A stretch of DNA of 64,000 nt from contig NZ_WBVQ01000002.1 in the NCBI RefSeq assembly GCF_008933165.1, forward strand, positions 1,139,569 to 1,203,568. Direction: 5' to 3'. How positions within the stretch are numbered: the first letter of the stretch is position 1; each line of letters opens with the position of its first letter. Source of the stretch: Phaeocystidibacter marisrubri. Lineage in GTDB: Bacteria; Bacteroidota; Bacteroidia; Flavobacteriales; Schleiferiaceae. The position numbers and the translations under genes were made by a program. Below, piece by piece: positions 14,629 to 28,703 of the stretch. The notes under the pieces were generated by a model, which saw nothing but the letters and a program-made list of their open reading frames with translations, was not told where the DNA came from and did not search any database.

Positions 14629-15612
14629 GTGAAATTTCGCACGGAAATACCCCCGCTAAAATCGGAGCGTCCCATTGACCACGACGATTTGATCCTATCC
14701 CTAGGCTCTTGCTTTGCAGAGCATATGGTTGAAAAGCTCAATGCCTTTAAATTCAACGTGATCCACAACCCATTTGGAACCACGTACAACCCACTCAGTT
14801 TAGCCGATCAGCTCAATGCCATTCGAACTGCTAGAACGTATGATGTAGTAGATTTAGAAAAGGCAAACTCACAGTGGTTTAGCTTTGATCATCACGGATC
14901 GTATTCGGATTCTACCGCCGCACTTACGCTTCAAAAAATAGATGCTGATCTCTCCGAGGCTTCTTCAAGTACAGGAGATTATACATGGACGATTTTGAGT
15001 CTAGGAACCGCATGGGCTTGGTTTGTAGAAAACAAGGTGGTGAATAACTGCCATCAACTTCCCGAATCTCATTTTGATTTCAGAATGTTAGAAATCGATG
15101 AGATGTTTGAAGCACTTCAAAACGCAATGGAGAAGTGGAACGAGCAGAATCCCGAGAATGTTTTCATACTAACGGTGAGTCCGGTTCGTCACCTTCGCAG
15201 CGGAATGGTAGACAATAATAGAAGCAAGGCTCGCTTGATTGAATTGGCACATCTCCTAACGGAACACGTATCCAATTCACTCTATTATCCCTCTTACGAG
15301 ATGGTGATGGACGATTTGCGAGATTATCGATTCTATGATGCTTCCCTCACACATCCTTCCTCTGAAGCCATCGAATACATCTGGGAGCATTTTTCCAACA
15401 CTTTCTTTACTTCCCACACTATGGAGATGATGAAAGCGTATGAAGGCTTTAGAAAAGCTTTATGGCACAAACCTCGTCAGACTTCCGGCGCTGCCTTTGA
15501 AGGACATCTTCAATCTTTGGACAAGAAATTTATGGCTTGGATGCAACGATGGCCAGAAGCGGATTGGACACCAGAAAAATTGCGCTGGAATGAATTGCTA
15601 AAGCTCCGCTGA
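14629..15612 (+). CDS. GSCFA-domain protein
   Basis: Protein of 327 residues of the GSCFA family, common in Bacteroidota and thought to be related to SGNH-like hydrolases. The defining LSLGSCFAEHM is at about 24-34; HNPFGTTYNP follows, and later VSPVRHLRSGMVDNNRSKA and YYPSYEMVMDDLRDYRFYD. The start is GTG (14629), which gives the usual MKFRTEIP-type N-terminus. The stop abuts the stop of the convergent epimerase gene at 15613. Substrate unknown; cytoplasmic as no signal peptide is seen. Confidence 0.92.
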   Translation: MKFRTEIPPLKSERPIDHDDLILSLGSCFAEHMVEKLNAFKFNVIHNPFGTTYNPLSLADQLNAIRTARTYDVVDLEKANSQWFSFDHHGSYSDSTAALTLQKIDADLSEASSSTGDYTWTILSLGTAWAWFVENKVVNNCHQLPESHFDFRMLEIDEMFEALQNAMEKWNEQNPENVFILTVSPVRHLRSGMVDNNRSKARLIELAHLLTEHVSNSLYYPSYEMVMDDLRDYRFYDASLTHPSSEAIEYIWEHFSNTFFTSHTMEMMKAYEGFRKALWHKPRQTSGAAFEGHLQSLDKKFMAWMQRWPEADWTPEKLRWNELLKLR

Positions 15613-16662
15613 TTATCGGATCAGATTATCACGCTCCAATTGAAGCACCATATCGCGAAACGTTTCATCTGTAGATCGGAACCAAACTCCCAATTCACTT
15701 TTGGCCTTAGAAGTATCAAATGCAAAGGGTTTTCCGTAGTTGCGAGTAATGAATTTCCACGATATGCCGCGAAGCGGCCCAAATAGATAAAGCATCCAAG
15801 CGGATAACTTGTTCGAGGGGAGAGGGTAGTCTATACTTTCAGTGACTCGCTGTGTAATCTCACTGATTTGCAACATGGAAAGTACTTCATTCACCGCTAT
15901 GTATCTTCCAGGTGTATGCTCTCTTTCTACGGCGTGAATGTGCGCTTCTGCTACATCTCGAACATCTACAATTCCAAAGTAAAATTCAGGTGCGCCTATT
16001 CTAAAATCACCGCGCAACATCTGAATCATAAATTGTGTACTGGCACCATCACTTCGTCCATTTAAACTGGGTCCCATTACAAATCCAGGATGAATTGTCG
16101 TAAGAGTCCATCGCGATTGAGCCTTATTCATTTTCCAAGCTTCTTTTTCAGCGATGGTTTTTGAATAATTATACGGACTGTACTCTTTTGAAGCGGTTGT
16201 ATTCCAGCACGTATCGTCGAATTCTTTGTTGGTTGCTTCCGAAATATCAACGGCATCGTTGTACAATGCAACCACACTACTTGTCAATACCACCTGAGTC
16301 ACTGTAGGCGTATTGTTAACGGCCGACAAGACGTTTCGCGTACCTTCTAGAGCAGGGTCAATCAATTGTTTTTGTGGATCTTTTATTCCCGAAATAAGAA
16401 AGGGGGAAGCCATGTGAATTACGGTATCACAGTGCTCAAAGGCTTCAACAAATCCACCGACTAATAAATCAGCTTCAAATAACATTAACTGACCGGGATG
16501 TGCTACTTGTAAGCGATACAGATACACGTGTTTCTCTGAATCTTCTACATTTCTCACTGTGGCGTGGACCGTATATCCGTGTTGAAGTAACTTCTTCACC
16601 ACCCAAGACGCAATGTATCCCGACGCTCCTGTAACCGCTATAGTAAGCTTCTTATCACTCAT
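15613..16662 (-). CDS. NAD-dependent epimerase / dihydroflavonol-reductase-like extended SDR
   Basis: Extended SDR of 349 residues from ATG 16662 (MSDKKLTIAVTGASGYIA). The Rossmann motif TGASGYIA is at 11-18, and the catalytic YxxxK appears as YNYSKTIAE. VVLTSSVVALY and HPGFVMGP are also typical of the dihydroflavonol 4-reductase/cinnamoyl-CoA-reductase-like branch; the bacterial substrate is unknown. The start overlaps the end of the NUDIX gene by 8 nt (ATGAGTGA), which indicates translational coupling. A longer frame to 16707 would lie inside the NUDIX gene and was rejected. Confidence 0.9.
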   Translation of the reverse strand: MSDKKLTIAVTGASGYIASWVVKKLLQHGYTVHATVRNVEDSEKHVYLYRLQVAHPGQLMLFEADLLVGGFVEAFEHCDTVIHMASPFLISGIKDPQKQLIDPALEGTRNVLSAVNNTPTVTQVVLTSSVVALYNDAVDISEATNKEFDDTCWNTTASKEYSPYNYSKTIAEKEAWKMNKAQSRWTLTTIHPGFVMGPSLNGRSDGASTQFMIQMLRGDFRIGAPEFYFGIVDVRDVAEAHIHAVEREHTPGRYIAVNEVLSMLQISEITQRVTESIDYPLPSNKLSAWMLYLFGPLRGISWKFITRNYGKPFAFDTSKAKSELGVWFRSTDETFRDMVLQLERDNLIR

Positions 16663-17218
16663 TATTTCGCAACATATAACGATCCATCCAAAGTAGAGCC
16701 ATAACACTCAAACTATCGGTAATTTCTCCGGAATCAACTTTGGCAATGGCTTCGGCAAGTGGTAAGTGGAGTAGGGTAAGCACTTCCGTTTCGTCTGGGT
16801 CTATTTCAACCTTCTTCAAATCCCTTGCGGTATATAAAATGCACTGCTCATCTGTAGCACTATTGCTGATGTCTGAACGGAGAATTTCCTTCCACTCACG
16901 GGCTTCTAATCCCACTTCTTCACGCAATTCTCGCTTGGCAGATTCAAGCGGATCTATATGTCGCAATCCACCACCTTCTGGAATTTCCCACGTGTATTTA
17001 TCCAGTGGATAGCGCTTTTGTCCTACCAGCCAAGTATAGCCATTCTCATCAATGGGTAAGATTCCAATAGCGTAATTCTTAAAATGAACTACACCATAAA
17101 TTCCGTCTCCACCATTGGGATTTATCACTTCATCGTGATAGACGGTAATCCATGGATTGTCATATTGAACTTCTCGAGATTTGCGCTTCCAGTCCAATGT
17201 ATTCTTATCGTCGGCCAT
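16655..17218 (-). CDS. NUDIX hydrolase (ADP-ribose pyrophosphatase-like)
   Basis: NUDIX protein of 187 residues from ATG 17218. The core REL-x-EE-x-GL is intact at 96-104 (RELREEVGL), preceded by WEIPEGGGLRHIDPLESAK. The Glu normally found eight residues before the REL Arg is not present; the loop here reads HIDPLE, a variant of the Nudix box. Substrate is probably a nucleoside diphosphate derivative. The gene lies between the MORN gene (14-nt overlap upstream) and the epimerase gene (8-nt overlap downstream), so all three form one minus-strand operon. A longer frame to 17299 runs into the MORN gene. Confidence 0.9.
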   Translation of the reverse strand: MADDKNTLDWKRKSREVQYDNPWITVYHDEVINPNGGDGIYGVVHFKNYAIGILPIDENGYTWLVGQKRYPLDKYTWEIPEGGGLRHIDPLESAKRELREEVGLEAREWKEILRSDISNSATDEQCILYTARDLKKVEIDPDETEVLTLLHLPLAEAIAKVDSGEITDSLSVMALLWMDRYMLRNNE

Positions 17219-18821
17219 TGTCGAGTTCCGTGCGATTGTATTTGATTTCTTCTCCAGCTGAATAGGTGATGGTAACGATGCGCGCACCATTCGTGGCAAA
17301 TTGTTCCCAAACGCCTTCTTTTAGTCCATTGGAATACTGACCTCTTCGCGCAATTTGTCCATTGTTGTAATAGGTGACATGAAGACCTTCTTTCTTACCG
17401 TTGCTGTAATCTCCTTCTTCTCGTAATTGTCCAGAATCTAACCAAGTGATGGTCCATCTACCTTCGCGTTCTCCTTGCACATATTCGCCGGTTTCCAGCA
17501 CGCCATGACTTGAGTATTTCCAAATGCCCGTCTTCAATCCATCGAGATACTGACCTTGTACAATGACTTCATTGGAATCGTTGTATTCAACAACATCACC
17601 ATCTGCTAATCCTTCAAAGAAGTTTTGTTCCAATCGCAACTCACCATCTTTGAAATACCATCTCCACACACCATCAAGTTGATCGAACATATACTTTCCA
17701 ACTTGTTCTAATGTGCCATCTTCAAAGAAGTATTTCCACTCACCATCCTTGCTATCGTTGATGTATTTTCCAGTGGCTTTTAGCGTTCCGTCTGGCCAAT
17801 AATATTTCCAAATTCCCTGCTTTCTTCCCTGATTGTCGTACAAACCCTCGGCTAAGAGAATATCGTTCTGCCAGAGTTCAGCTGAGATGATATTTCCATC
17901 TTCGTCAAACTGTCTGTGAACACCATTTTTTTGACCGTTTTGATAGCCTCCAATCGCAGTAATCTTTCCTGTGTTCAGATCTACCGTTCTAACCAAATCA
18001 ATCTTGGAAGTGGTGTTGTCTTCATCTTCTTGCAAGACTCCCATCACCCATTTTTCAATGCGAATCAAATCACCATTTCGCTTGTAATATTTCCAGAAAC
18101 CGTGTTTTAAATCGTCTTTGTACGTACCTTCAATGCGCACATTCATATCGTTGAAAAACTCAACCCAAGTCCCTTTTTTCAGACCGAAGCGATCGTACCT
18201 GTTAATTTCTTGCTCCTTGGTTAATACTCCTGAGCGATATGTGAGAATGGTGGTAACGGTGCCGGTAGTATCAAATTCATATCCGGTGCCTTCTTCTCGG
18301 TTGTTAACAAAGGGAATGAGCTTCTTAATATCTCGGTTGGGATAGTAATATGTGGAGGTTCCATTGATCTCATCTGCCACATAGGAAACTTCTCGTTTCA
18401 GCACAGAATCAGGTGCCCAGTACTCTCTTGTTCCCTCTTTCATTCCGGCCACATATCGAATAACCGACTGAATTTGACCGTCTTCATCATAGAACTTCCA
18501 TGGTCCGCTCAACATGAAATTTTCGCGGTTTCCTTCGGATTTTAGGTGACCTGTTCGGTAGTAACTCTTCCAGTAGCCATCTGGATTTCCGTTTCGTAAA
18601 TAGCCCTCACTTGATATTTGCCCGTTGTCGAATTCATATTTGACAAAGGTGAGGCTATCCGTCGAATTTTCTGTTTGAGCGAATCCTAAGTAATGAACAG
18701 TTAATAGTAATAGTATTAATGATCTTTTTAAAAGAAATAAGGATATAGTATTAGCCTGTTGATAGCCTGAATATCTTTTTGAAGGATGAATAGGATTTAT
18801 GTGATCTGGCACTTTGCTCAC
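17205..18821 (-). CDS. Large exported MORN_2-repeat protein
   Basis: Protein of up to 538 residues with at least a dozen MORN_2-type repeats, e.g. GYWKSYYRTGHLKSEG, GIWKYYWPDGTLKATG, GEWKYFFEDGTLEQVG and GLHVTYYNNGQIARRG. A hydrophobic segment (SLILLLLTVHYLGFAQ) is a signal peptide, but it sits about 30 residues from the only clear start, a GTG at 18821; a downstream unusual start is possible. It is the first gene of the MORN-NUDIX-epimerase operon and its start lies at the left edge of the candidate replication origin. It is the largest of three MORN_2 proteins in the window. Function unknown. Confidence 0.82.
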   Translation of the reverse strand: MSKVPDHINPIHPSKRYSGYQQANTISLFLLKRSLILLLLTVHYLGFAQTENSTDSLTFVKYEFDNGQISSEGYLRNGNPDGYWKSYYRTGHLKSEGNRENFMLSGPWKFYDEDGQIQSVIRYVAGMKEGTREYWAPDSVLKREVSYVADEINGTSTYYYPNRDIKKLIPFVNNREEGTGYEFDTTGTVTTILTYRSGVLTKEQEINRYDRFGLKKGTWVEFFNDMNVRIEGTYKDDLKHGFWKYYKRNGDLIRIEKWVMGVLQEDEDNTTSKIDLVRTVDLNTGKITAIGGYQNGQKNGVHRQFDEDGNIISAELWQNDILLAEGLYDNQGRKQGIWKYYWPDGTLKATGKYINDSKDGEWKYFFEDGTLEQVGKYMFDQLDGVWRWYFKDGELRLEQNFFEGLADGDVVEYNDSNEVIVQGQYLDGLKTGIWKYSSHGVLETGEYVQGEREGRWTITWLDSGQLREEGDYSNGKKEGLHVTYYNNGQIARRGQYSNGLKEGVWEQFATNGARIVTITYSAGEEIKYNRTELDNGRR

Positions 18822-19170
18822 AGTTTATTAACGGTGTTGATATTGAATGTAGAGTTGATTTTCAAGATAGTAAGGAATGCTGTCCACAATTGTGAATATC
18901 GTGAAGGTACGGTGAACTTTGAAATCTTTCCATGTGATTAACGGTGAATAACCATGAGTTGTTGGTTGATGAAAAGTCTAAAAGTCAGGGGTGAATTGAT
19001 TTGCACATGTGAAAGCCAAGCGTGTATTGATTTTTAAAATGGATTACACAAGGAAAAGTTTTGTTCCTGTTATCCACGTTTATCAACAGCTATTCACATG
19101 TAATGTTGATAAGGATGTGTTTTGTGAATAAGCCACTCTAATTTCAGACCTTTGTGGAAAATAAGCACGC
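18822..19170. other. oriC: Candidate chromosomal replication origin (oriC)
   Basis: This 349-bp intergenic region has many DnaA-box-like 9-mers. On the degenerate consensus TTWTNCACA, full matches on the minus strand are 19123-19131 and 19153-19161. One-mismatch matches are 19070-19078 (TTATCCACG), 19080-19088 (TTATCAACA), 19090-19098 (CTATTCACA), 19104-19112 (reverse TTATCAACA), 18891-18899 and 18943-18951 (both reverse). An AT-rich stretch lies at 19022-19042. GC skew flips here: sampled 60-base lines of the minus-strand gene to the left have C over G (20/11, 15/10, 19/8 at 17461, 18001, 18421), while minus-strand genes to the right have G over C (19/7, 18/9, 16/9 at 19741, 20041, 20581). 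Two parS-like sites follow at 26.8 and 28.7 kb. dnaA is not in the window. Confidence 0.78.
19070..19098 (+). repeat. Three DnaA-like boxes in helical phase
   Basis: TTATCCACG, TTATCAACA and CTATTCACA start at 19070, 19080 and 19090: same orientation, exactly 10 bp apart, so all face the same side of the helix. A reverse copy follows at 19104. Each differs from TTATNCACA by one base. Confidence 0.7.
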
Positions 19171-19599
19171 ATGAACATTTCAATTGGAGCAGATCACGCT
19201 GGCATCGAATACAAGGCTGCCATCACGAAAGAACTTGAATCTAAGGGACATACCGTTACCGATCACGGTGCGTATTCTGAAGAAAGTGTGGATTATCCAG
19301 ACTTTGGACATCCCGTTGCTAACGATGTTGAAAACGGTAAAGCAGACTTGGGTATCGTAATCTGTGGAAGTGGAAATGGTATTAACATGACCGTTAATAA
19401 GCACGCTGGAATTCGCTCTGCACTTTGTTGGAATACTGAATTAGCAGCTCTAGCTCGCCAGCACAACAATGCAAATGTTCTTGCGCTTCCCGCTCGCTTT
19501 ATTGATCTAGATCTGGCTCTTGCATGTGTGAATACCTTCATTACAGAAGAGTTTGAAGGAGGTAGACACGAGAGAAGAGTAAATAAGATTCCTTGTTAA
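19171..19599 (+). CDS. rpiB: Ribose-5-phosphate isomerase B
   Basis: RpiB/LacAB-family sugar-phosphate isomerase of 142 residues, interconverting ribose 5-phosphate and ribulose 5-phosphate in the pentose phosphate pathway. Visible are the N-terminal ISIGADHAGIEYK, VDYPDFGHPVA, the active-site loop GIVICGSGNGINMTVNKHAGIR, with LCWNTELAALARQHNNANVLALPAR following. The length is typical. Cytoplasmic. The ATG is 9 bp downstream of the last DnaA-like box, and the gene's 3' end overlaps the convergent lipoprotein gene by 4 nt. Confidence 0.96.
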   Translation: MNISIGADHAGIEYKAAITKELESKGHTVTDHGAYSEESVDYPDFGHPVANDVENGKADLGIVICGSGNGINMTVNKHAGIRSALCWNTELAALARQHNNANVLALPARFIDLDLALACVNTFITEEFEGGRHERRVNKIPC

Positions 19600-20456
19600 T
19601 CTTCCGATAGAAATAAGGTTTCCCAATAGTGGATACCATACGATGGCCAGGGTTTTTTCTCCGGCCATTTTAGTAGGTGGATATTTGAATTAGCTTCCCA
19701 ACTCTTTTGGTTTTGAATGGAATAGAGTGGGTATTCATTGTGGAAAACGGTTGGAATAATGGTGTCTGACAATCGTGAGATTGATTCACGGATGTGAGCA
19801 TCGCTCCAGTACGACCGGATGAACTTTGTATAGTGAACATTGTACATACTTTCGTCTGTAGTTCCACGGACTTCGATTATGTTGACGAAGTGATTGCGGA
19901 GACTGTCATTGCTCAAGCCCCACAGCTGGTTGAGGGAATATCCCGTTGTATCTTGCTCTTCTATAACCTGTTGTATCATAATCTGTTGGAGCGGATAGTA
20001 CATGGGTTGCACGAGCATAAGATCATCTGTACGATAGTCTTTCGCAAGGCGAATGGCAATGGAAGAATAGAAGCCTTCACCTAAAATGTGAAGGGGAAGA
20101 ACGGTGTCTCTTTGCGTTCTGATCTGACTTAATGAGTACGATACTCCCCTCAAGCGATTGTCATAATTGTCCAGTGTCATTCGAGATCGTCCTGGTGCTC
20201 CCCAGCGGTGAGGAACGATTACTCTAAAGTTTTTGGAGAGGTAAGAAAGCATAAGTGGAGTAGGCTCTTCCAACTTATCGGTGCTATCGGACAGATAGAT
20301 AAAATCCCCATAAATCGAATCACTTTCAGGAGTATAGAGGGTGGTTTCATACCCTATCTCATCATTATCATTGATGAAAGTAGACGTGCTGTAAGAAACT
20401 CCGCATGAAACCAATGAAAAGCTGAGCAGAACGAATAGGTAGGGTTTCAAATCCAT
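19596..20456 (-). CDS. Lipoprotein with alpha/beta-hydrolase-like pattern, no nucleophile
   Basis: Lipoprotein of 286 residues: signal peptide ending SLVSC, lipidated Cys at about 18. The middle resembles an alpha/beta hydrolase: FRVIVPHRWGAPGRS as a strand and loop, a helix, then the elbow-like LHILGEGFYSSIAIRLAK. At the nucleophile position of GxSxG there is no Ser (GEGFY), so a catalytic role is doubtful; the fold assignment is tentative. Its start overlaps the end of the response-regulator gene by 10 nt, so it is the third gene of the kinase-regulator-lipoprotein operon. It may be the extracytoplasmic component of that system. Confidence 0.65.
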   Translation of the reverse strand: MDLKPYLFVLLSFSLVSCGVSYSTSTFINDNDEIGYETTLYTPESDSIYGDFIYLSDSTDKLEEPTPLMLSYLSKNFRVIVPHRWGAPGRSRMTLDNYDNRLRGVSYSLSQIRTQRDTVLPLHILGEGFYSSIAIRLAKDYRTDDLMLVQPMYYPLQQIMIQQVIEEQDTTGYSLNQLWGLSNDSLRNHFVNIIEVRGTTDESMYNVHYTKFIRSYWSDAHIRESISRLSDTIIPTVFHNEYPLYSIQNQKSWEANSNIHLLKWPEKKPWPSYGIHYWETLFLSED

Positions 20457-21070
20457 TTCTTGCGTTTAGCGTATTCGAGGAGTTCACGTGTGTTCACCGC
20501 ATTTGATTTGAATAGTAGTGACTTTCGAATATCAATTACTTCGTTAATAGACACATCTAACGTTTCAGCAATCTCCTTGTTGCTGCGGTTGATGTTTAGA
20601 GCACGAAGAGTTAATTTCTCGGTCTCGGTCAATTGAATTTGATTGTCCTCATAATCGTCATCAACGTGTTTGATTCCGGTAACCGATTCTGGGAAGTATC
20701 GCTCTCCGTTGTATACCTGCTTAAGTGCATCAACCAATTCGCCTAACTCACCCGATTTCAGTACATAACCATTCGCTCCATTTTGATGGAAGTGATCCAT
20801 GTATCTTCTCACTCGGTGCATGGTGTAGATGATCGTTTTAACCTGGGGATGGAAGGTTCTCAGCCTAGCAAAAATGTCAAAACCATCTACGTCTGGTAGA
20901 CTGATATCCAGTACGATGATATCAGGAGTAACCTCTTCTAAAGTGGTAAATAATTCTTCTGAAGAAGAGCATACAGCCAAAATATCAAAGCTACCGTCCA
21001 TCTCCACAATAGCTTTCATACTCCGCAATATTAGCGGATGATCATCTAACAATATAATTCCAGGTCTCAT
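20447..21070 (-). CDS. NarL-type response regulator (TPR-kinase system)
   Basis: Response regulator of 207 residues. Receiver: Asp9/Asp10, phosphoacceptor Asp55 (IIVLDISLPDVDG), Thr/Tyr region IIYTMHRVRRYMD and Lys in GYVLKSGE. The C-terminal LuxR-like HTH is present but divergent (LTETEKLTLRALNINRSNKEIAETLDVSINEV, quoted in part: NKEIAETLDVSINEV). The start overlaps the kinase stop by 4 nt and the stop overlaps the lipoprotein start by 10 nt, so all three are translationally coupled. Targets unknown. Confidence 0.93.
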   Translation of the reverse strand: MRPGIILLDDHPLILRSMKAIVEMDGSFDILAVCSSSEELFTTLEEVTPDIIVLDISLPDVDGFDIFARLRTFHPQVKTIIYTMHRVRRYMDHFHQNGANGYVLKSGELGELVDALKQVYNGERYFPESVTGIKHVDDDYEDNQIQLTETEKLTLRALNINRSNKEIAETLDVSINEVIDIRKSLLFKSNAVNTRELLEYAKRKKWI

Positions 21071-23082
21071 TGCTTTTGATTGGGGATATAGATGCGGTAT
21101 TCATTTCCTTGATTGTGACTAGATCGTATGAAATCGCCTTTCAAAAATTGAACTCTATGTTCAATGGGTTTCCAAGGATGTAATACTCTGTCGCCATCAT
21201 TATATCGTTGTTTCTTTACACCGTTATCTTCAATATTTACCCATACACCACTTTCATTCCAAAGCATTTCAATCAATAGATAATTCGCTTTGTAATGATA
21301 TAACGACACTTGTATAAGTTCTTGGATAAGTCGATAGAGATTGATTTGTTCATCCCTATCCATGGGAATTGCTTCGCTTTGATCAATGTTTAAATCAATG
21401 GTCGCTTCCGTTTGATCTCTATAACGGGTGCAGAGTTCCTCCAAGGCATCGGCCAGACCAAATCTTTCCAGTACAGGAGGCATAAGATCTTGTGAAATGT
21501 TGCGAACCTCTGCCGACATGTCTTGCACAATTTTTAGAAGAGTTTCATCTCCGTTGCGATGGGTAACCACATGATTTTTTAGGACGGTAATATGGTTTCC
21601 CACTTTGTCGTGAAGTTCATGAGCCAACCGTTGTCGTTCTTCTTCTTGACCTTTCATCAAAGCTTCAGCAGCTGTTATTTCCAAATTCTTGGTATACAGC
21701 GTATTCTTGGTGCGTTGCATCTGTTGGAAGTTCGACATCAAGAGGACTAACACAATAATCAGAAGTACAGTGGCACCTCCAAGCGCATAATTAATCACTT
21801 TACTCTTTTTCAATTGCGCCTGTTTTTGAGAATCAGATTTTTCGAGGTTGTTGATGATTTTCTTCTGCTCTTCAATATGATAGAGCTGTTCAATTTTATG
21901 AATGGTGGCTTGTTCGTCTAGAAGTCGAATACTATCAGAAAGTGATCGATATTTCTGCGTATACAAGAAGGCTTGCTGCCAATTTTTCTCTTTGGCGTAA
22001 ATGGATCCGAGAAGTTCATAGAGGAGGGAAACGGTTTCACTATCGTAACCTAATTCTGTGTTATCGATGGCTTCAAAAGCCAATTCTTTGGATCTGCTAT
22101 TTTGATCATTGAGGAAATATAATCGCGCTATGGCGTACTTCGTATTCGCCATTCCTGCATGGTCTCCAAACCTCTGTTTAATAAGGAGTGATCTCTTATA
22201 ATAATCTAATGCCTCTGCGGTATCGGTTTCTTCTTTTAATGCACCAATATTATGCAGTACCATGGCCATTTTAGTACTGTCGTTCAGCTGAGTAAAATAC
22301 TTGAATGCTTGTTGATAGAAGTATTCTGATTCTGGAAATAGTCCGCGTTCCTGTGAAACATTTCCAAGATTCGTATAAACGTCGGCTACAATTTTGGGAT
22401 ACTCGAAGAGGGCTGGATTCTCGTACACCGTTCGGTAAAGCTCATCTGCTTTGTCGTACTGGCTTAAGTGATAGTACAGATTCCCCAAATCGATAATAAT
22501 CTCGAAATAGTAGGATGAATCGATGGGATGTTCTTCAAATTCAGAAAGTGCTCGGTGGTAATAGCGAACAGATTTAGCCTTCTCTCCATTGAGGTCGTAG
22601 ATCGTTCCAATCATGTTTAGATTGTAGATCGTAGAGAGATAGTCATTGATTTCTTTGAATCGAATGCTGGCTGAATCGAGATAGGAAAGTGCAGTAAAGA
22701 GTTCCGATTGTTGGTAGTAATAGTGGCCCAAGAGTTCCAGTATGCGAGCATCTAAATAAACTGATATACTATCCGTTCTGGAATGGAGGACATGATGCGC
22801 TTCTAAGCATTCAATTTCTACGCTTTTTGGAGATTGTCTGTTTTTTAAAAGCGCTCTGTTTCTTTGATGAACGAAGAGATTTTGAATGATTTCACTGCTG
22901 GGTTGTTGGGTATTGGTGTATTGAATCGCCTTGTCGAATTGGCGTTGTTCAATTAAACTATCCAGTACACGCAAGTGTTTAACATATTCATTTTGTTCAT
23001 TTTGACCTTCCGATGAATAAGGAAGAATCAGCAGAAACAGATATAAACAAGCATGTGCTAAACGGTGCAGGATGGACTCCAC
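21067..23082 (-). CDS. TPR-containing HisKA_3 sensor histidine kinase
   Basis: Kinase of 671 residues. Signal peptide or N-terminal membrane segment (about 5-25, LYLFLLILPYSSEG); TPR repeats from about 110 to 400 in the periplasm; a transmembrane helix at about 430-451; a coiled linker; DHp helix EEERQRLAHELHDKVGNH with phospho-His491; and a HATPase_c domain whose late motifs are weak (WVNIEDNGVKKQRYNDGDR, quoted in part: NIEDNG). The start is a GTG at 23082, 48 bp from the divergent DUF4175 ATG. It resembles the Bacteroidota family of TPR-NarX-type kinases that sense through protein partners. Confidence 0.92.
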   Translation of the reverse strand: MESILHRLAHACLYLFLLILPYSSEGQNEQNEYVKHLRVLDSLIEQRQFDKAIQYTNTQQPSSEIIQNLFVHQRNRALLKNRQSPKSVEIECLEAHHVLHSRTDSISVYLDARILELLGHYYYQQSELFTALSYLDSASIRFKEINDYLSTIYNLNMIGTIYDLNGEKAKSVRYYHRALSEFEEHPIDSSYYFEIIIDLGNLYYHLSQYDKADELYRTVYENPALFEYPKIVADVYTNLGNVSQERGLFPESEYFYQQAFKYFTQLNDSTKMAMVLHNIGALKEETDTAEALDYYKRSLLIKQRFGDHAGMANTKYAIARLYFLNDQNSRSKELAFEAIDNTELGYDSETVSLLYELLGSIYAKEKNWQQAFLYTQKYRSLSDSIRLLDEQATIHKIEQLYHIEEQKKIINNLEKSDSQKQAQLKKSKVINYALGGATVLLIIVLVLLMSNFQQMQRTKNTLYTKNLEITAAEALMKGQEEERQRLAHELHDKVGNHITVLKNHVVTHRNGDETLLKIVQDMSAEVRNISQDLMPPVLERFGLADALEELCTRYRDQTEATIDLNIDQSEAIPMDRDEQINLYRLIQELIQVSLYHYKANYLLIEMLWNESGVWVNIEDNGVKKQRYNDGDRVLHPWKPIEHRVQFLKGDFIRSSHNQGNEYRIYIPNQKQ

Positions 23083-23130
23083 AATTCAATGTACCTTGGT
23101 GTTCGATGGAAAGATACAAGATTAGAAAGA

Positions 23131-26100
23131 ATGAACAGTAGCAGCTCAATTAGATTTCAAATTGATCAGTACCGTAGAAAGTTTCACCGATTGGAATTGT
23201 ATCGTGGAGTAATATCTTCGGTTGCACTGGGGTTGTTCTCCCTTTTCATCTTCGGTCTTCTAGAGTATTTCCTCTATTTACCATCATCAATTAAAACTGT
23301 GTTGGTAAGTGTATGGTTATTAATTAACGCCATTTTTATTGGAATTTGGATTATCAGACCTACTCTGTCATTGTTGACGGGATGGAAAGCAATCAGCGAT
23401 AGGGATGTGGCACTTCGTATGGGTTCTGGTAATCCTACCGTTGAGGATAAGATTGTGAATTTTCTTGAGCTGGAATCGAATAGTTCTATAGATCAATCTT
23501 ATTTATCGGCCATAATTGAGCAACGCACGAAATCACTTTCTCAGCAAAACTTGCTTGCCACCTTAACCCCGAAACGATTAATCAAAGCTGCATGGATAGC
23601 GGGTATACCTACGTTTATCGTTTTTGTAATAGGCCTATTTGATTCTGATCTCATCACGCAGGGGAGTTTTCGATTTCTAGATTATAACACGGCGTACGTT
23701 CCTATGGCTCCTTTTCAATTTGAATCTGAGATGAGTTGGGAAGTGGAGTACGGTGAACCCTTGACCCTAAAATTATATTTAAACGGGAATCGAATTCCAG
23801 ACCGTGCATTTGTTTACCTAAATGGTGAACGCATTGCTATGACCACGGTTTCTCCGGGAGAATTTGAATGGACGATTGATAGAAATGTCGAGAATTCTTC
23901 AGTGGTTTTTGAAGCGCTTGAGTTTAAAAGTGAAAAAGGGATCATCAATGTACTTAAAGTTCCATCTCTCTTGAACTTCAAATTGCGTGTTCTTCCTCCT
24001 TCTTACACAGGTATTGCTCCTTTTGAGATCGAAGCGTCAGGTGACGCTGTGGTTCCTGTCGGTTCTGATGTTCTTTGGACGATGCAGTGGAGGGATGCAG
24101 ATTCCATTTCCTTATTGGATTCTAAAGGCGGGGTACTTGAAGACGTCAGTGTTCATACCAGTTCGAGTTCTGCTTCTATTCGTTTATTAAGCCCGTTAAA
24201 GTACAGAGTGGCTGCAGATAACGTGAATGGTACACAGTATATCAGTGGCTTATACGATTTGTCTATTATTCCTGATTTACCACCATCTGTTGAAGTGGAG
24301 TACCGTGTGGATAGTATCACGAGGAGAGTATACGTTCGCGGTTATTCTTCGGATGATTATGGCGTAACAAGTACGCGCATTGTTCTGGAAGGAGATTCAT
24401 CTTATGTCATTCCAGTGGGTAGTCAGAACACTTGGACTTCTTCTTTTCAAGCAGAATCTCGTTTTCATTCTTTTTCCGTTGAGGTTTATGATAATGACGG
24501 TGTACATGGAAATAAGCGCACTAAAGTAGGTCCATTCGAATTAGTGCTTCCTAGTCAACTTGACAGAAGGGAAGAACTCGATAAACAAGATCATGAACGA
24601 GTTGAAGAGCTGAAAGAATTCAGACGCGAACAAAGCGAAATGCGCGAGTTACAGGAAGAAATGAATCGTCAATTGATTGATGGTAATTCTAACTGGCAAC
24701 AGAATCAAATGAAACAACGAATGCTTCGTCAGCAAGAACAGTTGATGGAGAATTGGGATCGCATGATGAATCAGTTCCGTCGTGAAAATGAGCAACGGAT
24801 GATGAATGATCCATCCAATCCTGAGAATACAGAGAAGCGAGAAGAGCTGCAGCGATTGATGGATGAAATGGACAAGGATAAGTTGGAAGAACTTATGAAA
24901 GAAATGGAAGAGCGTTCTGAACGTATGAATCAGGATAATCTTCGCGATTGGATGCGCAGAGTTCAGAACGAGAACGATAGAATGGAGCTTGATGCAAAAC
25001 GATTGGAAGAGTTGATGAAGCGACTAGCATTTGAGCAGGATCTGGACAGGGCCATGGAGGAGCTAAATGAAATGCAAGAGCGTCAACAAGATTTAGCTAA
25101 CCGGACCGATGATACCCGTGAGGAACAAGATGAATTGAACGAGCAGTTTGAAGATTGGAAGAACAATCTAGATTCATTGCAGAAGCAAAACTCGGAATTG
25201 GAGCATCCCAACGATTTTGATAGTCCCAAAGAAGAGGCAGAGAAGACAGAAGAAAGCATGCAAAAAAGTTCTGATGAATTGAATCAGAATCAGTCTGACA
25301 AGGCAAATGAGAAACAGCAACAGAGTAGTGATCAAATGCAGGACATGATGCAACAAATGAGTAGCACGGTTATGCAAATGCAGATGCAACAACACGTAGA
25401 GAATTTGGCTGTTCTTCGGAGGATTTTGACCAATTTGATTCATCTGAGCGATGACCAAGAGCAATTAGGGTCAGAGATACTTTCCAATTCTTCTTCAGAT
25501 GCTGTGGTAGTTGCATGGATGAAACGTCAACAGGATTTAAGGAAGGGTTATCAAGTCGTAGATGATAGTTTATCGGCATTAATTGGAAGAATTCCTCAGA
25601 TAGAAGCTCCCGTAACAAAATGGATGGTTGAGGTTAAATCAAACATGACGCAATCCAATGATGATTTAAGTGAGCGTGACTTACCAAGCGGCTCTAGTAA
25701 CATGCGTGAAAGTATGATTGCTTTGAATGAACTGAGTTTGATGTTGGATGGTACCATGGATCAGATTCAACAGCAAATGAGTGGTATGATGAAGGGTGAT
25801 CAATCCTGTCAGAAGCCGGGTGGTGGTAAACCATCGATGAGTAATATGCGCAAGATGCAGCAGCAGTTGAATCAACAGATGCAGCAGATGGGTATGCAGC
25901 AAGGCAACCAACCACAGAGAGATGGTCAGAATGGTCAATCTGGTGAAGGTGGAGAGAATGGTATGGGTGAAGGAATGTCTGAGGAGTTGGTAGAAATGAT
26001 GATGCGTCAAGCCGAAATTAGGCAGATGTTGAATGAAGCAGGTTCCACGGGGAACAATGGTAATAAAGCACTGGAGGAATTACTAGAAGAGAACGAGCGT

Positions 26101-26373
26101 GACTTGGCTCGTCAGAATTTTGACGCTGAGTTTTTTGAGCGTCAAAAGGAGATAGATGTGAAGATGTTGGAGTTAGAGGAGGCAGAACGTTTGCAAGAAC
26201 AAGATGAAGAGCGAAAGAGTAATGCTGGTGATCGTTACCAAGAACTGTTGCGAATGCGGGAGGAAGAATTCTTGCGTGATCAGAAGCAGATGAATGAACA
26301 ATTGCGTTATCAAGCTCCTCCTTTAACACCCTATTATCGTCAGCGCTCAGGTTCGTACCTTCGCGGCCAATGA
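23131..26373 (+). CDS. DUF4175-family membrane protein with Met/Gln-rich coiled coil
   Basis: Protein of 1080 residues from ATG 23131; a longer frame to 23065 would overlap the divergent kinase start. Two transmembrane helices at about 27-50 and 55-76 and a third near 175-195 are followed by an extracytoplasmic beta-rich region (about 200-480), then a long charged coiled coil (about 480-790) and a Met/Gln/Gly-rich tail (e.g. NQQMQQMGMQQGNQPQRDGQ, about 930-960). This layout is that of the DUF4175 family. Function unknown. The stop overlaps the ybeY start by 4 nt (ATGA). Confidence 0.88.
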   Translation: MNSSSSIRFQIDQYRRKFHRLELYRGVISSVALGLFSLFIFGLLEYFLYLPSSIKTVLVSVWLLINAIFIGIWIIRPTLSLLTGWKAISDRDVALRMGSGNPTVEDKIVNFLELESNSSIDQSYLSAIIEQRTKSLSQQNLLATLTPKRLIKAAWIAGIPTFIVFVIGLFDSDLITQGSFRFLDYNTAYVPMAPFQFESEMSWEVEYGEPLTLKLYLNGNRIPDRAFVYLNGERIAMTTVSPGEFEWTIDRNVENSSVVFEALEFKSEKGIINVLKVPSLLNFKLRVLPPSYTGIAPFEIEASGDAVVPVGSDVLWTMQWRDADSISLLDSKGGVLEDVSVHTSSSSASIRLLSPLKYRVAADNVNGTQYISGLYDLSIIPDLPPSVEVEYRVDSITRRVYVRGYSSDDYGVTSTRIVLEGDSSYVIPVGSQNTWTSSFQAESRFHSFSVEVYDNDGVHGNKRTKVGPFELVLPSQLDRREELDKQDHERVEELKEFRREQSEMRELQEEMNRQLIDGNSNWQQNQMKQRMLRQQEQLMENWDRMMNQFRRENEQRMMNDPSNPENTEKREELQRLMDEMDKDKLEELMKEMEERSERMNQDNLRDWMRRVQNENDRMELDAKRLEELMKRLAFEQDLDRAMEELNEMQERQQDLANRTDDTREEQDELNEQFEDWKNNLDSLQKQNSELEHPNDFDSPKEEAEKTEESMQKSSDELNQNQSDKANEKQQQSSDQMQDMMQQMSSTVMQMQMQQHVENLAVLRRILTNLIHLSDDQEQLGSEILSNSSSDAVVVAWMKRQQDLRKGYQVVDDSLSALIGRIPQIEAPVTKWMVEVKSNMTQSNDDLSERDLPSGSSNMRESMIALNELSLMLDGTMDQIQQQMSGMMKGDQSCQKPGGGKPSMSNMRKMQQQLNQQMQQMGMQQGNQPQRDGQNGQSGEGGENGMGEGMSEELVEMMMRQAEIRQMLNEAGSTGNNGNKALEELLEENERDLARQNFDAEFFERQKEIDVKMLELEEAERLQEQDEERKSNAGDRYQELLRMREEEFLRDQKQMNEQLRYQAPPLTPYYRQRSGSYLRGQ

Positions 26374-26789
26374 GTAAGGTTAGATTTTATAACACCCCTT
26401 CAAGCTGGGAAATTGACGTCTCAGAAGTAGACCGTTGGTTGTCGACGGTTGCTTTAATGGAAGGTCTTCGTTTGGTAGAAATTTCCTATCGTTTTTTGTC
26501 AGATGATGAGATGCGTTTAGAGAATGTTCGCTTGCTCGAACATGACTACTACACCGATGTTATTACCTACGGAGAGGTGCGTGGAACGCGTATCTATGGT
26601 GATGTTATTGTTTCCTATGAGCGTATAACTGATAATGCTAATCGGTTAAATAACAGTCTTTTAGATGAAAGAGATCGTGTTTTTGTACACGCGCTTTTGC
26701 ATTTGTGTGGTTATGACGATCAATCTGAAGTTGATCGACTGAAAATGAGAAAGTTAGAAGATAAGTATCTAGCTTTGCGATCTAAATAG
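26370..26789 (+). CDS. ybeY: Endoribonuclease YbeY (rRNA maturation)
   Basis: YbeY family, 139 residues, a metal-dependent RNase acting in 16S rRNA 3' processing and ribosome quality control. The metal motif HxxxHxxxxxH is changed: His107 and His111 are present (HALLHLCGYDDQ), but the third position, residue 117, is Asp. Substitution of the third His is, as I recall, frequent in Bacteroidota homologs and Asp can still bind metal, so I do not call the gene inactive. Also visible is the family N-terminal region ISYRFLSDDEMRLEN and YTDVITYGE. Coupled to the DUF4175 gene by a 4-nt overlap; a parS-like site overlaps its stop. Confidence 0.93.
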   Translation: MSKVRFYNTPSSWEIDVSEVDRWLSTVALMEGLRLVEISYRFLSDDEMRLENVRLLEHDYYTDVITYGEVRGTRIYGDVIVSYERITDNANRLNNSLLDERDRVFVHALLHLCGYDDQSEVDRLKMRKLEDKYLALRSK

Positions 26790-26803
26790 TTTCACGTGGA
26801 ACG
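26788..26803. other. parS: parS-like site 1
   Basis: AGTTTCACGTGGAACG matches the bacterial chromosomal parS consensus TGTTTCACGTGAAACA at 13 of 16 positions, and its 14-base core GTTTCACGTGGAAC is identical to that at 28689-28702. It spans the ybeY stop and ends two bases before the mnmG ATG. ParB binding is predicted from sequence only; the parAB genes are not in the window. Confidence 0.75.
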
Positions 26804-26805
26804 CT

Positions 26806-28677
26806 ATGATGACTAGAGAAGAATATGATGTAATAGTAGTAGGTGGAGGACATGCTGGAAATGAGGCTGCCGCTGCTGCTGCTAATATGGGAAGTAGGGT
26901 CTTGCTAGTGACGATGAACCTGCAGACCATCGGTCAGATGTCGTGCAACCCGGCAATGGGGGGTGTGGCTAAAGGACAGATTGTTCGTGAAATTGATGCG
27001 ATGGGAGGATTGAGTGGTGTTATTACGGATAAAACAGCCATTCAGTTCCGCATGTTGAATCGCTCTAAAGGACCTGCTATGTGGAGTCCTCGTGTGCAGT
27101 CTGATCGATGGCGTTTTGCAGAAGAGTGGCGTCTCGCTTTGGAGCGTATTCCGACCTTGGATTTCTTTCAGGATATGGTCAATGGACTGTTGATTGAAGA
27201 TGGTAAAGTGGTCGGTGTTCGTACGGGTATGGGTGTTGAGATTATGTCAAAAGCTGTCGTTTTAACCAATGGAACTTTCCTGAATGGTTTGATTCATATT
27301 GGAGATAAGAATTTTGGCGGTGGGCGTGCTGGTGAGCGTGCTTCTACAGGTATTACAGAACAGCTCGTTCAACTTGGTTTTGATACGGGAAGGATGAAGA
27401 CAGGGACCCCTCCGAGAGTGGATGGTAGGTCGTTGGATTATTCCAAGTTTGAGGAGCAAAAAGGGGATGAGAACCCGGGGCGTTTTAGCTACTTGAATGA
27501 GTATTCAATTGGTGAGCAAAAGAGCTGTTGGATTGCATATACTTCGGAAGAAGTACACAACACTTTGCGGTCCGGTTTTGATCGTTCGCCGATGTTCAAT
27601 GGCGCCATTCAGAGTAAAGGCCCGAGGTATTGTCCGAGTATTGAAGATAAGATTCATCGTTTCGCGGACAAGGATCGTCATCAATTGTTTGTAGAGCCAG
27701 AATCTTGGAATTCCGTTGAGATGTATATCAATGGGTTCAGTACTTCTCTTCCTGAAGAAGTACAAGTGGAGGCCCTACAGAAAGTACCAGGATTTGAAAA
27801 CGTTCGATTCTTCCGTCCAGGTTATGCGATAGAATACGATTATTTCCCACCTACGCAGTTAAAGCATTCTCTAGAGACCAAACTAGTAGAGGGTTTGTAT
27901 TTCGCAGGGCAGATCAATGGAACAACAGGTTATGAAGAGGCCGCATCTCAAGGGCTTATGGCTGGCATTAATGCGCACAGAAAAGTGTCAGGTCTCGGTG
28001 AAGTTATCCTGGATAGAAGCCAAGCTTACATAGGCGTCTTGATTGACGATCTGATTACCAAAGGCACAGAGGAGCCATATAGAATGTTTACCAGTCGTGC
28101 TGAGTTCCGTTTATTGTTACGTCAGGATAATGCTGATCTTCGTCTAACTCGACTTTCTCATTCATGGGGTTTAGCTTCTGATGAACGTTTAAAGAGAGTA
28201 GAAGAGAAGGAATTGGGTATTGCTCAATTAAAGGCTGCGGTCAGCGAGTTTAGTATCGAGCCTGAGGCTATCAATCCTCTTTTAAAGTCTTTCGAATCCG
28301 CTCCGGCGAAACAGAAGAATAAACTAGATACGTATATAGGACGTCCAAATATTCGGTTGTTCGACTTGTTGAACTTGGATGCTGTGAAGGAGTCCATTGA
28401 TCCTTCAGCGTATGACGATGAGGTTATCGAACAAGTAGAGATTGATTACAAGTACAGCGGATATATTCAAAAGGAACAAGATAACGTGGATAAGATGTTG
28501 CGTTTGGAGAATATCAAGATTCCGGAATCCTTTAATTACGCAGATATTACGTCCTTGAGTATGGAGGCGCGTTTGAAATTATCCGATATTCGCCCAGCAA
28601 CGGTTTCTCAAGCATCGCGCATAAGTGGTGTTTCTCCAGCCGATATCAGCGTTTTGTTGGTCCATATGGGCCGTTAA
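26806..28677 (+). CDS. mnmG: tRNA U34 modification enzyme MnmG (GidA)
   Basis: FAD-dependent protein of 623 residues that works with MnmE to install the cmnm5 group on uridine 34 of certain tRNAs. Visible motifs are the FAD-binding VVGGGHAGNEAAAAAA near 10-25, SCNPAMGGVAKGQIVREIDA, and the C-terminal conserved ALKYEGYI-equivalent EIDYKYSGYIQKEQ with LSMEARLKLSDIRPATVSQASRISGVSPADIS (quoted in part: LKLSDIRPATVSQASRISG). Two adjacent ATG codons make the exact start ambiguous by one residue. The gene is flanked by two parS-like sites and is a classic origin-region gene, which supports the oriC call at 18.8-19.2 kb. Confidence 0.97.
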   Translation: MMTREEYDVIVVGGGHAGNEAAAAAANMGSRVLLVTMNLQTIGQMSCNPAMGGVAKGQIVREIDAMGGLSGVITDKTAIQFRMLNRSKGPAMWSPRVQSDRWRFAEEWRLALERIPTLDFFQDMVNGLLIEDGKVVGVRTGMGVEIMSKAVVLTNGTFLNGLIHIGDKNFGGGRAGERASTGITEQLVQLGFDTGRMKTGTPPRVDGRSLDYSKFEEQKGDENPGRFSYLNEYSIGEQKSCWIAYTSEEVHNTLRSGFDRSPMFNGAIQSKGPRYCPSIEDKIHRFADKDRHQLFVEPESWNSVEMYINGFSTSLPEEVQVEALQKVPGFENVRFFRPGYAIEYDYFPPTQLKHSLETKLVEGLYFAGQINGTTGYEEAASQGLMAGINAHRKVSGLGEVILDRSQAYIGVLIDDLITKGTEEPYRMFTSRAEFRLLLRQDNADLRLTRLSHSWGLASDERLKRVEEKELGIAQLKAAVSEFSIEPEAINPLLKSFESAPAKQKNKLDTYIGRPNIRLFDLLNLDAVKESIDPSAYDDEVIEQVEIDYKYSGYIQKEQDNVDKMLRLENIKIPESFNYADITSLSMEARLKLSDIRPATVSQASRISGVSPADISVLLVHMGR

Positions 28678-28687
28678 TTTCCAATTT

Positions 28688-28703
28688 CGTTTCACGTGGA
28701 ACA
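28688..28703. other. parS: parS-like site 2
   Basis: CGTTTCACGTGGAACA matches TGTTTCACGTGAAACA at 14 of 16 positions. It lies between mnmG and the methyltransferase gene, 1,900 bp from parS-like site 1. A GTG inside it (28696) is in frame with the methyltransferase; I prefer the ATG at 28705, which leaves the site intergenic. Confidence 0.78.

Follow-up and report, generated by a model that had tools for sequence, protein, structure and literature searches.

The window analysed here, a stretch of 64,000 nucleotides from the genome of Phaeocystidibacter marisrubri, very probably contains the replication origin (oriC) of the main chromosome, at about positions 18,700-19,170, between a gene for a MORN_2-repeat protein and the divergently oriented rpiB. 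The first-pass annotation had proposed a candidate origin in this gap, and the reading, which is drawn from sequence, is supported by a switch in strand composition, a cluster of DnaA boxes, nearby parS sites, a dif-like site, a footprint of conserved boxes within the genus, and skew flips at rpiB in relatives. The origin is ordinary in kind, whereas the layout of the chromosome is unusual, and the placement is more precise than in predictions based on mnmG.

To follow the composition of the strands, 40 stretches of 20 kb were sampled on the two large contigs, C1 and C2, of this 3.35-Mb genome, which is assembled in 22 contigs; the switch in the window (C2:1139569-1203568) lies inside C2, a contig of 1.37 Mb. 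On C2, the raw GC skew is negative in all 17 stretches to the left of the window and positive in all three to its right; on C1, all 13 stretches up to 1.04 Mb have a positive skew and all seven from 1.105 Mb a negative one. The earlier claim of a flip from C-rich to G-rich is thus borne out, and among the sampled stretches of both large contigs this is the only negative-to-positive switch. A change point calculated from fourfold sites alone was too wide (14.0-23.75 kb within 5 log-likelihood units), and we therefore used a log-likelihood track calibrated on both replichores, by gene strand and codon position. Its peak is at position 18,180, with an interval of 16,975-18,575 at 3 nats and of 14,824-19,718 at 10 nats, and the track has fallen by 4.8 nats at 18,730 and by 10.4 nats at 19,020, in the middle of the box cluster. 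The composition peak falls within the left gene, short of the proposed origin by 0.5-1 kb on its left side; the switch has the direction expected of an origin and agrees with its position to within about 1 kb.

The features around the switch, in window coordinates, are as follows.

17205-18821, minus strand: left gene, MORN_2-repeat protein (Pfam); true start probably to the left of 18821
18701-18750: lowest duplex stability of any 50 bp in the window (nearest-neighbour rank 1; 82% A+T), candidate duplex-unwinding element
18702-18713, plus strand: DnaA-trio-like triplet run TAATAGTAATAG, from the sequence
18746-18754, plus strand: DnaA-trio-like triplet run TAG TAT TAG, 2 bp (CC) before the box at 18757
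18757-18765, minus strand: DnaA box CTATCAACA, adjoining the triplets
18814-18822, plus strand: box TTGCTCACA; TTGTTCACA in G002 and TTATTCACA in G001 (genus alignment)
18880-18888, plus strand: box CTGTCCACA, left partner in an inverted pair (genus alignment)
18891-18899, minus strand: box ATATTCACA, right partner in this inverted pair (genus alignment)
18933-18941, minus strand: box TTAATCACA, unconserved in the genus
18943-18951, minus strand: box TTATTCACC, present in G001 and absent in G002
18999-19007, plus strand: box ATTTGCACA, unconserved in the genus
19070-19098, plus strand: three boxes at 10-bp spacing, TTATCCACG, TTATCAACA and CTATTCACA, a conserved block in the genus alignment
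19104-19112, minus strand: box TTATCAACA, identical in G001 and G002, inverted relative to the three-box array
19123-19131, minus strand: exact box TTATTCACA, not kept in both relatives
19153-19161, minus strand: exact box TTTTCCACA, unconserved, overlapping a conserved CCTTTGT just 5' of rpiB
19171-19599, plus strand: rpiB, right flanking gene (Pfam LacAB_rpiB)
26042-26055: parS-like site with one mismatch (pattern match)
26789-26802: parS, exact match
26806-28677, plus strand: mnmG (gidA; Pfam)
28689-28702: parS, exact match

The 349 bp at 18822-19170 hold ten 9-mers that resemble the DnaA box TTWTNCACA, two of them exact and eight with one mismatch (at least eight, two full and six with one mismatch, had been claimed), and this number was reached by none of 3000 dinucleotide shuffles of the same 349 bp (mean 1.9, maximum 7). 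Among 350-bp windows, the cluster in the rpiB gap has the highest box density in the 64-kb window and in the 800 kb sampled from the 3.35-Mb genome, where the runner-up has seven boxes, and the rest of the 64-kb window has no cluster of six or more. In all, the scans for clusters covered about 28% of the genome. An intergenic box cluster beyond chance is one of the features expected of an oriC. Exact boxes taken alone are not in excess, numbering six in the window against 7.75 expected and 231 genome-wide, barely above the 212 of a reversed control pattern. When the window is aligned with two relatives in the genus, G001 and G002, neither of the exact boxes, at 19123 and 19153, is shared by both, and several one-mismatch boxes are kept: the conserved blocks are the box at 18814, the pair at 18880-18899, the box at 18943 (in G001 only), the array at 19070-19098, and the box at 19104.

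The interval proposed at the outset, 18822-19170, holds the cluster, but the origin extends further left to about 18,700, where the stability minimum sits. Given this minimum at 18701-18750, the GTG start at 18821 of the left open reading frame is probably not the true one. An unstable A+T-rich segment beside the boxes is again what is expected of an oriC, and at 18746-18765 the order is TAG TAT TAG, then CC, then TGTTGATAG. In the search rule for basal unwinding systems (BUS) given by one report (PMC8287927), a DnaA box must have three or more 3'-NAN-5' triplets no further than 16 bp away; the module at 18746-18765 satisfies this rule, on the assumption that its triplets face the box in the right orientation. 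As far as the accessible parts of the sources go, the likeness to the BUS of the Bacillus subtilis oriC (PMC6669920, PMC8287927) consists in boxes beside at least three middle-A triplets, a short spacer, and an A+T-rich neighbour, whereas here the triplets are TAG TAT TAG instead of repeated 3'-GAT-5', dnaA is distant, and the arrangement is predicted from the nucleotide sequence.

The parS sequence GTTYCACGTGRAAC has two exact matches in the genome, at window positions 26789 and 28689. Both are 7.6-9.5 kb to the right of the origin and flank mnmG, in agreement with the earlier observation of two parS-like sites and mnmG within 10 kb. In addition to the one-mismatch site in the window, there is a second one at C1:694490. 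Genes with DciA and ParB domains are present in the genome, and parS near the origin together with a ParB gene is a further characteristic of an oriC. The only ParB_N-domain gene found is at G000:C1:868724-869002, on the other large contig and far from oriC.

The opposite switch is at C1:1,074,273 (1,073,521-1,074,771 at 3 nats), and within 0.7 kb of it there is a dif-like 28-mer at C1:1,073,650-1,073,677, which has three mismatches to a dif consensus, compared with five to seven for the best sites in 16 control stretches. An oriC should also have its counterpart, a switch of opposite sign with dif, on the chromosome to which it belongs, C1 and C2 being joined by inference only. The two arms would be about 1.73 Mb (C2) and about 1.28 Mb (C1), and the remaining 20 contigs add up to 0.34 Mb. 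A dnaA next to the origin is missing, for the only dnaA gene of the genome, the open reading frame at C1:1,115,982-1,117,415, lies far off near the terminus, 42 kb from the dif-like site. We considered an origin beside dnaA and rejected it: the best cluster in the 20 kb holding dnaA has four boxes in 350 bp, and the 3.5-kb dnaA locus has two. At the opposite switch, the best cluster in 60 kb has five boxes. Hence the denser cluster near dnaA that had been named as counter-evidence is absent from the sampled sequence.

Among 60 relatives, rpiB was detected in 54. We compared 30 regions upstream of rpiB, 29 from relatives and the window's own: 14, including the window, have a box cluster (reached in at most 5 of 100 shuffles), eight have none (at least 40 of 100), and eight are between. 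Enriched 9-mers in these regions include TTATTCACA in 10 (0.2 expected), TTATCAACA in 11 (0.5), and TTATTAACA in 14 (0.9). Box pairs on the same strand, 10-11 bp apart, are present in 14 of the 30 (shuffles: mean 0.26, maximum 1), and MACAATTGTK in 10 (mean 0.24, maximum 1). As judged by eye, at least 18 of the 30 have an A+T-rich minimum some 280-520 bp ahead of rpiB. Triplet-box modules, defined by a pattern written after inspection of the regions, were found on the rpiB strand in 19 of 30 and on the opposite strand in 11 (shuffles: mean 0.5, maximum 3), and with the same post-inspection pattern 13 of 45 held-out loci labelled Flavobacteriales have one on each strand (mean 1.5, maximum 6). 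As a feature of the whole order, the triplet module was discarded; it is weak outside the family, with 5 of 25 named loci against three hits in a 200-kb control. The two-box tandem is not in excess genome-wide in the family (43 matches against 35 for a reversed control, in 31 of 60 genomes); it is its place that stands out: in at least 11 of the 31 matched genomes, a match lies 260 bp or less upstream of rpiB.

The skew flips at rpiB in three of four complete relatives tested (G005, G029, and G039); in the fourth, G049, it is flat, with no flip at rpiB. In G005, the switch was resolved to 0.8 kb (2,580,458-2,581,272), the boxes are 2.9 nats from the peak, and mnmG is 43 kb from rpiB. The genus footprint, the clusters in 14 of 30 regions, and the flips in three of four genomes together amount to the conservation expected of an oriC. 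In a wider sample of the order, and outside the family f16 described below, 118 genomes have both rpiB and mnmG, on the same contig in 106 and on different contigs in 12; the two genes are at most 60 kb apart in 105 of the 106, the exception being G047 with 420 kb. At least three TTATNMACA occur in the 700 bp upstream of rpiB (less at a contig end) in 24 of the 78 loci analysed of 80 named, three of the 78 being records that are also in the set of relatives. No locus with three or more was found among the four labelled Algoriphagus and the six labelled Saprospiraceae.

Three other explanations of these data deserve attention. According to one, replication starts within a few kilobases to the left, at about 17.0-18.6 kb and thus in neighbouring genes, and the cluster would be a nearby DnaA-binding site with another role, for example in regulating rpiB or the MORN_2 gene or in titrating DnaA. 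The 3-nat interval of 16,975-18,575 excludes the cluster and favours this explanation; however, that interval is coding and without a cluster of six or more boxes, and in G005 the boxes fall within the 3-nat interval. The method assumes uniform composition in each replichore, so that an error of about 1 kb in the switch is in our judgement plausible, and we regard a leftward origin as very improbable.

It has also to be considered that replication starts at mnmG, some 8-10 kb further right, where Ori-Finder puts the origin in two Flavobacteriaceae, and that the cluster at rpiB is a titration or regulatory site for DnaA. The accessible parts of two reports place oriC at or beside mnmG (PMC11278836, PMC12843772), and mnmG is here flanked by exact parS sites. 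The calibrated track rejects mnmG, however, since it lies 75.5 nats below the switch at the start of the gene and 101 nats below it at the end; moreover, no cluster of six or more boxes exists in the window beyond the rpiB gap, and in G005 the switch is at the upstream region of rpiB, with mnmG 43 kb away from that gene. This makes an origin at mnmG hardly credible. Equally hard to credit is a skew switch produced by a recent inversion or misassembly. The assembly is in 22 contigs, which leaves room for such an artefact, but the switch is internal to a 1.37-Mb contig, the local gene order is that of G001 and G002, three single-contig relatives have their flip at the corresponding place, and both parS and the box cluster are local to the switch.

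For the origin in the rpiB gap, we propose a mechanism modelled by analogy on known DnaA-dependent origins. DnaA, working in trans from a gene 42 kb from the dif-like site, would bind the inverted pair at 18880-18899 and the array with its inverted box at 19070-19112. A DnaA filament may then reach the box at 18757-18765, continue over the neighbouring triplets, and so open the A+T-rich DNA at 18700-18755. At the opened segment, the replicative helicase would be loaded, presumably with the assistance of DciA, and forks would depart in both directions to meet near the dif-like site on C1. The new origins would be segregated by ParB on the parS sites to the right.

The separation of dnaA and origin may be viewed on a larger scale. 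We took the 26 single-contig genomes of the order sample that have rpiB, dnaA, and mnmG, for most of which lengths were rounded to 0.1 Mb; the single-contig G049, with its flat skew, is outside this set. In 25 of the 26, the distance between dnaA and rpiB is 0.38 of a half-chromosome or more. In these units it is 0.78-0.93 in the window's own family (n = 3), 0.38-0.88 in f3 (n = 11), and 0.48-0.73 in f6 (n = 10). The exception is G047, whose dnaA is 0.13 from rpiB and 0.57 from mnmG; on its contig C1, rpiB at 121898 is near dnaA at 409, yet 420 kb from mnmG and parS. A dnaA far from the origin thus appears to be common to the order, with the origin taken to be at rpiB, without a check of the skew, in most of the 26, whereas a dnaA close to the terminus looks like a trait of the family only. 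In G029, whose length is 4.04 Mb, dnaA is at base 540 and the terminus falls between the stretches at 3.88-3.89 and 3.94-3.95 Mb; in G005, the terminus is between 0.71 and 0.75 Mb and dnaA is at 1.01 Mb.

One may speculate about the meaning of this geometry. If dnaA is duplicated only at the end of a round, its copies per origin would drop after initiation and recover at completion. That selection holds dnaA near the terminus as a brake on re-initiation built from geometry, typical of this family, seems to us an unlikely idea.

In the family f16, which makes up 25 of the 146 genomes of the order sample (0.3-0.6 Mb), there is no dnaA (20 genomes as listed, five by elimination), and in its genomes of about 0.6 Mb, rpiB and mnmG are about 0.25 Mb apart and no longer close. 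We take these genomes to resemble Blattabacterium and its relatives. In one genome of the Blattabacterium type, dnaA is described as missing in the accessible part of the report (PMC2768785).

The dnaA-origin separation as such is already in print (PMC11278836, PMC8994065, PMC10197239), as the accessible portions of these papers make clear. In Mariniflexile litorale, dnaA did not match the skew and the predicted oriC was beside mnmG, although the figure legend swaps oriC and ter relative to the text (PMC11278836); in Algorimicrobium, oriC was predicted at mnmG (PMC12843772). To judge from the same portions, these cases resemble ours in the neighbourhood with mnmG, which is shared at the level of the order, and M. 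litorale also in a dnaA that is off the skew, whereas in the window it is upstream of rpiB, not at mnmG, that the switch and the boxes are found. In Elizabethkingia meningoseptica, the predicted oriC is at 740,720-741,368 with three boxes reported, and dnaA is at 2,613,273 (PMC8994065); oriC and dnaA are far apart there too, but the portion of the report available mentions no link to rpiB. The origins of gut bacteria were set by parS, skew, and coverage and are near parS and not systematically near dnaA (PMC10197239, accessible part). Proximity to parS and distance from dnaA are common to both, with support from Hi-C and coverage in the gut bacteria and from sequence alone here. An origin at rpiB, and a terminus-proximal dnaA as a family trait, were not found in the literature covered, which took in few of the subscription journals.

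The finding provides a testable origin for a flavobacterial lineage, and the placement upstream of rpiB recurs in other families of the order, for which published predictions name mnmG. Database records are often rotated to dnaA: this gene is within the first kilobase of the record in 12 of the 26 single-contig genomes, and the record of G029, with dnaA at base 540, begins near the terminus. Growth rates estimated for such records from read coverage would be wrong if the origin were assumed to be at dnaA. With dnaA placed as it is, one can further ask whether initiation timing is influenced by an initiator gene close to the terminus.

Scans of the window for Rfam families and tRNA gave no matches. 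The gene order around the switch is common to the window genome, G001, and G002. To the right of rpiB, it consists of a protein without a Pfam match, a response regulator, and a TPR/HisKA_3 protein, these on the minus strand, followed on the plus strand by a DUF4175 protein, ybeY, and mnmG. The first three, at 19596-23082 beside the origin, are all matched in place in G001 and G002. At 23065-26373, separating the origin from ybeY-mnmG, there is a protein of 1102 amino acids with a weak DUF4175 match, which is about half identical in G001 and G002 and 23% identical in G019. On the other side, a match to the MORN_2 gene adjoins rpiB in 14 of 20 larger regions, including that of G040, which belongs to another family. 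Just 5' of rpiB, the block TTTCAGACCTTTGT at 19140-19160 is identical in the window genome, G001, and G002, and we assume that it may be the rpiB promoter, of the Bacteroidota type.
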